Virus record (IMG/VR): IMGVR_UViG_3300036854_000045
Span: 1-35,996 of that record
DNA from: a virus
DNA length: 35,996 nt
Reading direction: 5' to 3' (one strand)
Positions 3,131-5,378 of this stretch are shown piece by piece; the first letter of the stretch is position 1, and each line of letters starts with the position of its first letter. The notes under the pieces are model-generated. The model was not told the DNA's origin and ran no database searches. It was given only the letters and a program-made list of their open reading frames with translations. Both the position numbers and the translations under genes were made by a program.

Positions 3131-4567
3131 TCAGCTCCCGACCATCGACTTGGGCAGGGGCCGCATCTGCTTGGGTGTGGGTCCCTTCCCGTTCCCGACC
3201 TCGGGGCCTGGCTTGCGGCTGGGTCGTGGTGGTTCGCCGCTGGGGTTGCCGTCGCTGATCGCCGACGCGCCCTGCGGCACCGTACTGGCCGCTTCCCGGC
3301 CGGATTGCCCTGGCGGGGGGGCCTCCGGCGCGGCCTGCAACTGCGACACGTCCCCGGTCGCCAGGAACGCCACCGACGACTCCCGCGTGAACCCCGCCTG
3401 CACGCAGGTGAGCAGCGCCGCCGAGGAGACCTGGGCGACCTGCGCCCGTGCCGTCTCCGACTCCTGCAGGGCCGCGATATCGCTGGTGTCATACCAGAGC
3501 CGCACCCCGGCCGGCGGGATGTTGGGGACCAGCTTCTGCAGCGCCGCGCACACCCCCCGCCACAGGGGCCGCAGGGTCACGTCACCCAGGCGACGCATCG
3601 CCTGCTCGTAGACGACCGCCGCGCCACCAGGCCGTAGGCCGATCAGGACCGGGTCGACACCGGAGTCGGCGCAGATCCGGTCCGCGCCGGCACCCTGCAC
3701 CGTCGCGTAGTTCAACTGCTCCAGGGTGTTGCCCACCACGTCGGCGTCGGCGCCCTGGTCGAGCACGAGGGTGCGGAAGGCGTTCCCGGCGGCGTACTTG
3801 GCCTCCATCCGCTCCACGATCGCGTCGACCGTGTCCGGCCGCAGCCGCTGCTGGTAGCGCACCAGCATGTTCGGCGTCGCCGCATGCTCCAGGTAGGACA
3901 GCTTGTAGTTGGTCATCGCCGAGTCGGCGGTGATCTCCCGCAGGATCGGCGACACCCACGACATGCCGCGGAAGTTCGCCTTGGGGTCCGGGTAGGGGGT
4001 GAAGTGGGCGACCTCGTCCACGGGGAGGATCTGCGCCTGCTCGGACCGATCGTCCTGCCCCGGCGCGACCGCCTGGATCGGGGAGGGGTCCCAGTCGTAG
4101 CCGACGACCTCCCGCCAGTGCCCGGCCGGCCCGTGGGTCTCCTCGGAGATGATGGTGATCTGGTCGGGCGGCACCCGGACGAGCCGGTCCGGGGCGGCCT
4201 TCCAGACGTAGGCGTTCCCCGCCAGCGACACGTCCTGCTCCATCCTGGCAAGCAGCTCGCCGGTGGTGCAGCCCGGCCAGGGATGCTCGAGGACCGCAAG
4301 GTCCGGCGTGCCGTAGAGGCGCTTGTCGACCAGGGACTGCAGCTGGAAGCGGGCTTCGGAGAACAGGGCGAGGCGGACCAGGATGCACGCGAAGACGATC
4401 CCGTTGGAGGCGTAGGCGTCCTGCGCGGCGCTGACGAGGTTGGCGATGGCCTTCTCGCGGTTGGGGTCGCCCCAGGTGGACTGGTAGACGGCCGCGCCGG
4501 AGGCCATGCCCTCCCAGTAGCCCTGCCGCAGCGAGTAGCGGTCGGCGAGCCGGTCCAGCAGTCGCAC
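3131..4567 (-). CDS. Portal protein
   Basis: Forms the dodecameric ring through which DNA enters the head and to which the tail attaches. The 478-residue length fits the HK97-type portal family. Recognisable features are the N-terminal clip/wing region, the GNAYVWK segment after residue 115, the ILPVDEVAHFTPYPDP segment (portals usually have a similar I-x-HFR/P stretch), and the ICADSGVDPVLIGL region near residue 300. The C-terminal 80 residues are Pro/Gly/Lys-rich and probably disordered. The start is GTG with AGGTG six bases upstream, leaving only ~10 bases of leader after the structured region at 4618-4854. It ends five bases from the lipoprotein stop codon, with no room for a terminator. 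Confidence 0.87.
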   Translation of the reverse strand: MRLLDRLADRYSLRQGYWEGMASGAAVYQSTWGDPNREKAIANLVSAAQDAYASNGIVFACILVRLALFSEARFQLQSLVDKRLYGTPDLAVLEHPWPGCTTGELLARMEQDVSLAGNAYVWKAAPDRLVRVPPDQITIISEETHGPAGHWREVVGYDWDPSPIQAVAPGQDDRSEQAQILPVDEVAHFTPYPDPKANFRGMSWVSPILREITADSAMTNYKLSYLEHAATPNMLVRYQQRLRPDTVDAIVERMEAKYAAGNAFRTLVLDQGADADVVGNTLEQLNYATVQGAGADRICADSGVDPVLIGLRPGGAAVVYEQAMRRLGDVTLRPLWRGVCAALQKLVPNIPPAGVRLWYDTSDIAALQESETARAQVAQVSSAALLTCVQAGFTRESSVAFLATGDVSQLQAAPEAPPPGQSGREAASTVPQGASAISDGNPSGEPPRPSRKPGPEVGNGKGPTPKQMRPLPKSMVGS

Positions 4568-4617: not shown

Positions 4618-4854
4618 TCCCATGAACCCTCAGAGGCGAGGGACGCCGCTTGCGCAGCGGAGTCCCGTTGGCTGTCGGCTAGGCTTAAATGCGTCCGGCT
4701 GACACCCAGGTCGGGGAGGAGGCCGCAGCCGGGTACTAGGGCAGGTCCCTAAACGGTGCGGGCAAAGGCAAGCCAGTCCCGCCGGGTCGCCCCGCCGGGG
4801 GTCCGGAGGGCTTGAGCTTGGCCGCGGCTTAAGAACGAGGCGCCGCTACGCGCC
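4618..4854 (+). ncRNA. Candidate structured RNA, possibly HEARO/omega-RNA-like
   Basis: A gene-free stretch packed with consecutive hairpins: 4640-4666 (two 5-bp helices, one G/A mismatch, 5-base loop), 4673-4680 with 4697-4704 (8 bp), 4737-4741 with 4747-4751 closed by an outer CCG/CGG, 4758-4762 with 4778-4782, 4790-4793 with 4797-4800 plus an outer CCGG pair, 4811-4817 with 4827-4833 (7 bp), and 4839-4843 with 4850-4854. The helices at 4673 and 4811 contain G-U pairs only if the plus strand is the RNA; on the minus strand these become C/A mismatches, so I assign plus. It starts with an ATGAACCC block. A long multi-helix RNA starting with ATGA recalls the HEARO/omega-RNA family that goes with IscB transposons, but no nuclease gene is adjacent and I could not run a covariance search. 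Confidence 0.5.
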
Positions 4855-4867
4855 TACTCCTCCCCGG

Positions 4868-5152
4868 TCACCTCGCCCTCCGCCACCGTTCGATCGGCTC
4901 CGGCAACACCGCATCCCGCTCGGGGGCCTGCCGCAACAGACCGTCCACCCCGACCAGCAGCGACCCGAAGATCAACATCAGCCCCAACGCCACCCGCCCC
5001 AGGATCGCCGCCCCACCCAACATCCCACCGACCGCCACGAGGACCTGGAAGGTCGGCGTGCGAGCACGGCTGCCGGCGAGGGCGAGCAGCGGCAGGAGCA
5101 GGTCGGCGAACCGTCGCCGCGCGATTCCGAAGTCGATGGATGACACGGTCAC
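4868..5152 (-). CDS. Small membrane protein, unknown function
   Basis: A 94-residue protein with two hydrophobic segments: a short one (FADLLLPLLALAG) near the N-terminus and a long Gly/Val/Leu-rich one between about residues 37 and 70, then an Arg/Glu-rich tail ending in RWRRAR. I chose the GTG five bases after the upstream stop codon; a TTG 42 bases further up would make a 108-residue form overlapping the preceding gene. It sits between the 73-residue basic protein and the structured-RNA region. No family is recognised, and the RBS is weak. Confidence 0.5.
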   Translation of the reverse strand: MTVSSIDFGIARRRFADLLLPLLALAGSRARTPTFQVLVAVGGMLGGAAILGRVALGLMLIFGSLLVGVDGLLRQAPERDAVLPEPIERWRRAR

Positions 5153-5156
5153 GGGA

Positions 5157-5378
5157 CTACTTGCCCTTGCCGGGTTTCTTCCCCGCAACCGCAATGTTCG
5201 GGTACTTCTTCCGCACGGCGGCCTTCACCTTGGCCTTCTCGGCGGGCGTGCCGTGCTGCGCCACCCGGGCCAGCGCGTTCTTGGCGTGCGCCTCGTCGTT
5301 GATCGGGTAGCGCTTGCCGGGCAGCGCAAACGACTTCTTCGGGAGCGCCTTGCGCCCCTTAGAACTCAGCGTGGCCAC
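5157..5378 (-). CDS. Small basic phage protein, unknown function
   Basis: A 73-residue, Lys-rich protein. The phrases FALPGKRYPINDEAHAKNAL and ALARVAQHGTPAEKAKVKAA match a small protein family very common in actinophages and other phages, usually near head genes; its function is not established to my knowledge. GTG start with GGGAGG six bases upstream; the stop of the preceding gene lies two bases before the start. The high charge and position between terminase and portal fit a DNA-associated or head-related role, but that is inference. Confidence 0.75.
   Translation of the reverse strand: MATLSSKGRKALPKKSFALPGKRYPINDEAHAKNALARVAQHGTPAEKAKVKAAVRKKYPNIAVAGKKPGKGK

Follow-up and report, generated by a model that had tools for sequence, protein, structure and literature searches.

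A phage-borne family of small structured RNAs with an invariant 3′ domain, often close to tRNA genes

RNAs known from a comparable setting are GOLLD and ROOL, phage RNAs found near tRNA islands; GOLLD combines a conserved 3′ part with a variable 5′ part, and tRNAs are sometimes nested in it (PMC12286853). The catalogue of phage-encoded noncoding RNAs is poor, and the stable RNAs of the T4 and T5 tRNA arrays are annotated without function. Here we describe an RNA from IMG/VR virus record IMGVR_UViG_3300036854_000045 (the window, i.e. the whole stretch analyzed, positions 1 to 35,996) whose relatives likewise lie in phage genomes and, in many loci, close to tRNA genes. We assign it to a large family of RNAs that are carried by phages and act in trans, in tRNA metabolism or translation, a statement to which, mechanism included, we give a probability of about 40%. 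That an RNA family with the fold described below exists is, taken alone, nearly certain. The family is new, but the kind of phage RNA to which it belongs is known, if unexplained. No published description of it was found in a literature coverage that was incomplete, so that an earlier description is possible.

Borders, strand and fold of the RNA

The RNA occupies a gap between the portal gene and a short ORF, within a head-and-packaging cluster transcribed from the minus strand (portal, protease, capsid, terminase and unknown proteins in a general PHROG/Pfam family search), and is itself encoded on the opposite strand. The original prediction had placed a structured RNA with at least seven helices in this gap, at 4618 to 4854. 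The RNA is real, as homologues and compensatory pairing demonstrate, but its borders, set by comparison with relatives, are 4709 to 4869. In the fold common to these relatives, stem P1 closes the molecule, stem P2 carries a variable domain, and the 3′ hairpin, P3, is invariant; the parts in the window are as follows.

3131–4567, minus strand: portal gene, neighbor (PHROG/Pfam portal)
4709–4869, plus strand: whole structured RNA, type A member (matches of both covariance models; P1 extension)
4709–4721, plus strand: P1 5′ strand, closing stem, GGTCGGGGAGGAG (compensatory changes; pairing far longer than with the P1 3′ strands of other loci)
4722–4727, plus strand: P2 5′ strand (double changes at all six pairs)
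4728–4732, plus strand: P2a 5′ strand (GCCGG), base of a conserved GGUAC...GUGC hairpin domain (double changes at four of five pairs)
4739–4750, plus strand: P2a′ hairpin, GGG-CAGGTC-CCT (one-sided G-C to G-U changes only)
4759–4763, plus strand: P2a 3′ strand, pairing with 4728–4732
4769–4774, plus strand: P2b 5′ strand, CAAGCC (per-sequence helix search; moderate support)
4809–4814, plus strand: P2b 3′ strand, GGCTTG (per-sequence helix search; moderate support)
4823–4828, plus strand: P2 3′ strand, pairing with 4722–4727
4829–4856, plus strand: invariant 3′ domain, comprising the TTAAGAACG linker, the P3 hairpin AGGCGC-CGCTAC-GCGCCT and an A before the P1 3′ strand (fully or almost identical across 44 of 44 relatives)
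4857–4869, plus strand: P1 3′ strand, CTCCTCCCCGGTC (compensatory changes; P1 pairing)
4868–5194, minus strand: ORF without a PHROG/Pfam family match, neighbor (ORF list)

A covariance model built from type A (R1) matches the window at 4714–4864 on the plus strand (122.8 bits, E = 1.7e-28), a score that is not independent since the window is one of the 44 training rows. A second model (R2), trained on the 3′ part of type D and on no type A sequence, matches at 4795–4860 (E = 0.0017). P1 extends to 4709 and 4869, beyond both ends of the R1 match. The helices proposed for the upstream part (4618–4708) have no detected homologues, blastn gives no match over 4618–4800, and ATGAACCC, with which the RNA had been thought to begin, lies outside it. 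The density of helices, originally taken as evidence, carries no signal: the 237 nt fold like dinucleotide shuffles (z = −0.33 on the plus strand, −0.35 on the minus strand), as expected in GC-rich DNA.

The assignment of the RNA to the plus strand, against the late genes, holds on other grounds than those first offered. Across the conserved helices of the 44 relatives, G·U pairs outnumber A·C combinations by 63 to 11, which identifies plus as the RNA strand; a second line of strand evidence is that the nearest tRNAs (within 500 nt) lie on the same strand as the RNA in 36 of 36 loci. The two helices initially cited for the strand are not conserved: 4673–4680/4697–4704 lies outside the RNA, and 4811–4817/4827–4833 draws on bases that belong to P2b and P2.

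Covariation supports the fold quantitatively. In an alignment of 44 type A relatives including the window (177 columns), 93% of the cells in conserved helices can pair, and the covariation score for P1, P2, P2a, P2a′ and P3 is 0.454, against 0.06–0.11 when the partners are slid by one to three columns. Double-change cells number 189 among the 44 relatives, compared with 16–31 for slid partners and 59 on average for shuffled ones, and reside in P1, P2 and P2a. Because the P1 partner had been picked by complementarity, it was controlled by exchanging the 3′ strand between loci: true strands have a median score of 8.3 and exchanged ones of 5.0, and scores of at least 8 are reached by 56% and 2.4%, respectively. 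P2, which was not selected for, forms 5.3 contiguous pairs on average versus 2.6 with partners swapped. P3 has six pairs, of which five are invariant and hence uninformative for or against pairing. A pattern with a looser P3, in a scan that excluded only one base-pair position, returned a single stretch from the viral contigs; P3 thus resembles a binding signature more than a spacer.

Compensatory changes in P1, P2 and P2a together with the invariant P3 domain mark a new family. In the window, Rfam 15 gives nothing at the gathering score; at E ≤ 10 the sole match within this stretch is to a microRNA model, by chance. The fallback offered in the original prediction, a new phage RNA, is supported. 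Its preferred identity is not: a nuclease-free HEARO/omega guide RNA borrowing a nuclease from elsewhere is the least likely of all the explanations considered and scarcely credible. In 19 records, those of the window phage and of 18 further phages (the RNA is present in 13 of the 18), the HEARO model (RF02033) matches nowhere, even at E ≤ 10; P1 locks both ends of the molecule, and there is no sign of a variable 5′ guide. HNH endonuclease genes do recur among the genes flanking the RNA, but they occur among distant genes as well and are common in phages. Overall, the observation that started this work is partly confirmed and its interpretation partly supported.

A rival reading is a small counterpart of GOLLD and ROOL, which would assemble with copies of itself into a ring or cage through loop-loop contacts and hold tRNAs or other cargo in its variable domain. 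In line with this, types B and C have a loop in the P2 domain that could pair with the P3 loop, and in type C both loops have changed once in step (UCUG:CAGR to UCUA:UAGG); the setting is alike as well (phages, tRNA islands, a conserved 3′ and a variable 5′ part). However, the GOLLD model finds no sequence match, type A shows only weak loop pairing (with a mismatch in one AGC case) and type D none, and family members are only 86–230 nt long, so that we consider such a counterpart unlikely. Loop-loop pairing as a rule for every type is tentative at best, since it is good in type B and weak in type A, has a single covariation in type C and is absent from type D; a contact of the P2a′ loop with the P3 loop in the window RNA is likewise tentative.

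Distribution of the family among phages

In blastn searches against phages, only the 3′ end (approximately 4804–4866) found matches, at 80–97% identity and in noncoding gaps of phages infecting Arthrobacter, Microbacterium, Rhodococcus and Stenotrophomonas. Reading of the matched loci reveals that they share their 3′ block, which a stem connects to a point upstream. In the QuinnAvery and Stenotrophomonas records, a small hypothetical ORF is annotated over the matched 3′ end. The 3′ end carries the signature AAGAACGAGGCG-nCnnnnCn-CGCCUACUC, present in about 100 distinct viral contigs among the matches listed. A degenerate pattern, ACGAGGCG-N7..10-CGCCTACTC, matched at least 119 viral stretches, and among the matches listed 104 of 117 non-identical places passed a closing-stem filter; three that passed (L018, L060 and L124) resemble chance matches, and the subsequent analysis omitted them.

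Named carriers infect Arthrobacter, Microbacterium, Rhodococcus, Stenotrophomonas, Acinetobacter, Erwinia, Serratia, Salmonella, Citrobacter, Klebsiella and E. coli, and include Serratia and Erwinia jumbo phages, Ounavirinae, Chaseviridae, Stephanstirmvirinae, Lederbergvirus, Obolenskvirus and Gordonvirus. In Arthrobacter phage DevitoJr, which infects Arthrobacter sp. ATCC 21022, the RNA lies at 325–484. One covariance model and one short motif unite RNAs from phages that infect actinobacteria or proteobacteria and may be jumbo, temperate or lytic. Outside its training set, R1 finds Acinetobacter phage SR (83.7 bits) and type A members with long inserts; it scores types B and C at 54–77 bits and type D mostly at 20–31 bits. 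R2, built without type A, matches E. coli phage CUS-3 (E = 2.9e-10). That the model of one type finds the others was counted as support for a single family.

The family is essentially viral, since a strict pattern matches just one of 84,980 genomes representing bacterial and archaeal species. That match (L135:5096-5182) is a type D member on a chromosome contig of Limoniibacter endophyticus, possibly in a prophage. The exact sequence of the window RNA has no match in viral contigs, plasmids give none, and the window sequence is absent from E. coli genomes. Enterobacteria phage CUS-3 carries a divergent member between Q and holin S (L137:1896-2026). This CUS-3-type variant is common in E. coli prophages: 334 of the 5,426 complete E. 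coli genomes contain DNA resembling the locus, although partial matches may include the flank only, and 116 cover at least 80% of the query. R2 has no match in Felix O1, phiKZ, D29 or PhiPA3, in a multi-genome search run without a positive control. A blastn match in PhiPA3 was rejected as a member, as it lies within an annotated coding gene and misses the full motif. The phiKZ noncoding RNAs detected by Grad-seq (PMC8545117) were set aside as kin, phiKZ having no model match.

Comparison with the nearest relatives of the window phage suggests how the RNA came to its present site. R1 finds no match in phages whose portal is 52–71% identical to that of the window phage. In the three closest (L149, L150 and L155), DNA similarity resumes at 4564 and at about 4916–4920, on both sides of the gap. 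Given relatives in which the RNA is not found and similarity on either side, it looks like an accessory insertion in the window phage. The corresponding slot upstream of the portal gene in these three phages seemingly holds a small ORF (MSKLDELLEDLEEVR... in L149, by eye). Upstream of the RNA, at 4639–4665, the window has a strong GC-rich hairpin (GGGAC...GTCCC) without detected homologues, which could be part of the inserted cassette.

The position of the window RNA between portal and terminase genes, and of its counterparts just upstream of the terminase genes in Arthrobacter phages Elesar and QuinnAvery, would suit a packaging RNA of the phi29 pRNA kind, a branched junction with loop-loop pairing that works at the portal. 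Most loci lie elsewhere, though, many of them in tRNA arrays; the RNA was not found in the phages with 52–71% identical portals, and among lambdoids CUS-3, Huey and IME10 carry it but many others with a similar slot do not. A packaging role is very improbable.

tRNA neighborhood and proposed working

Among the matches listed, a tRNA lies within 500 nt of the RNA in 36 of 104 loci, against about 13 expected at random positions in the same loci. Gaps of 1–10 nt between RNA and tRNA, measured from P1, are frequent, and annotated genomes such as those of Citrobacter phage Tr1 and Salmonella phage SB18 have tRNAs around the members. Approximately two thirds of the 104 loci, some of them short, have no tRNA within 500 nt. 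The window belongs with these: ARAGORN finds no tRNA or tmRNA gene in it, no Rfam match marks its RNA as either, its record has no RtcB, and no sigma-70 promoter or terminator is recognizable at the RNA. Since it stands alone and against the direction of its neighbors, with neither tRNA, RtcB nor sigma-70 promoter, its expression in this particular phage is putative.

Short gaps to tRNAs, together with a short conserved core and interchangeable stems, are also what a processing element or ribozyme that cuts tRNA arrays apart would present, and one that needs no host partner would fit the breadth of hosts. We nevertheless regard this as improbable: many members are far from tRNAs, the variable domains are conserved within types far above what ribozyme stems need, and the Rfam ribozyme models give no match.

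The variable domain offers a further link to tRNAs. In type D it contains tRNA-like sequence, with a T-arm motif in 11 of 23 members versus 2 of 61 in types A–C, and an Rfam tRNA match falls inside one type D RNA; types A–C have no clear tRNA-like domain. This weakly suggests tRNA mimicry, for type D only. Just 3′ of the RNA in Stenotrophomonas virus Jojan60 lies an 83-nt stretch (L009:2583-2665) that the tmRNA model matches end to end at 61.8 bits despite a very large deletion, an oddity resembling a tmRNA or a tRNA.

Genomic neighborhood analysis weakly suggests a link to RtcB as well. The RNA ligase gene RtcB is the immediate codirectional neighbor in four contigs (L118, L029, L086 and L071) representing three subtypes, at gaps of approximately 16–101 nt, with a tRNA in between in L071. 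RtcB accounts for 4 of 128 neighbors and 0 of 118 distant genes in the same contigs, an excess that alone is not significant (approximately 0.07 by a simple binomial argument), and occurs anywhere in 4 of 40 records searched. Strand counts of flanking ORFs were discarded, a simple ORF finder being unreliable in GC-rich DNA. The rsr-yrlBA-rtcBA operon provides a precedent (PMC7790460) for the idea that the RNA is a relative or functional analogue of the bacterial Y RNA YrlA, pairing a tRNA-like domain with a protein-binding stem beside RtcB. The tRNA-like domain of type D and the four RtcB neighbors agree with it. Against it, a Ro60/TROVE gene is found in 0 of 20 records (19 chosen as carriers of the RNA, plus the window phage), and the YrlA model (RF02553) has no match over its cut-off in 20 records, only scattered low-scoring ones that are apparently tRNAs; a YrlA-like RNA is thus quite unlikely.

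The most likely role of the family is in translation or tRNA maintenance during infection. The RNA would be transcribed during infection, in tRNA arrays together with the tRNAs, from which tRNA processing would free it; upon folding, P1 would lock both ends. The invariant 3′ domain (P3 and the A-rich linker) may then dock on a component common to very different bacteria, and the variable domain, tRNA-like in type D, would work in tRNA metabolism or translation, for example as a tRNA mimic or decoy that shields phage translation from tRNA damage. Protecting phage translation when tRNAs are attacked is the most likely concrete use.

A bolder version, possible though doubtful, sees in the family a modular device shared by unrelated phage groups, in which an invariant dock on a universal component (the ribosome, a tRNA-processing factor or a translation factor are candidates) is combined with exchangeable effectors against tRNA-cleaving defenses, in places together with RtcB. 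If true, some effector domains would be tRNA mimics. The invariant core suggests a common partner, and the question is thereby testable: the 3′ domain, used as a single bait, could reveal that partner in many hosts.

Comparison with known RNAs

Several described RNAs share individual traits with the family. HEARO/omega-RNAs are likewise compact and structured, with HNH genes sometimes nearby, but their model matches at no level tried and the family RNA has no guide. The phi29 pRNA resembles the family in its branched junction with a closing stem and in possible loop-loop pairing. Unlike it, the family RNA is not confined to packaging genes, its genomic context being mostly unrelated to packaging, and searches of the window phage's close relatives did not find it.

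The Pas sRNAs of E. coli are, like some family members, small intergenic RNAs of lambdoid prophages. Their description sets them apart, with a 3′ terminator hairpin with a U tract and likely Hfq binding (PMC13192938). YrlA has a tRNA-like domain and is encoded together with RtcB (PMC7790460), traits that the family may show in type D and in the four contigs with RtcB, respectively. The family differs in its core, and in its records no Ro60 gene is found and the YrlA model has no match over its cut-off.

Small stable RNAs in tRNA arrays are annotated in T4 (rnaC and rnaD) and T5 (RNAI, RNAIII, RNAIV, RNA1, RNA2 and RNA2H), some of them as tRNA-like. Both phages lack the family motif, by reading of the sequence, and any R2 match, and kinship is not supported by sequence. 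In the T5 stretch read (28000–40000), stable RNAs lie at 2285–2645, 3809–3980 and 4839–5084 of that stretch; RNAIII, RNAIV and RNA2H, without the family motif, apparently have long terminal closing stems like P1.

Closest in kind are GOLLD and ROOL. The GOLLD model (RF02032) matches in 0 of 14 records at E ≤ 10, ROOL having been covered by the general Rfam scans only, and both differ from the family in length (over 600–800 nt), fold and conserved letters. What they have in common with it is their place in biology, as phage or prophage RNAs near tRNA islands.
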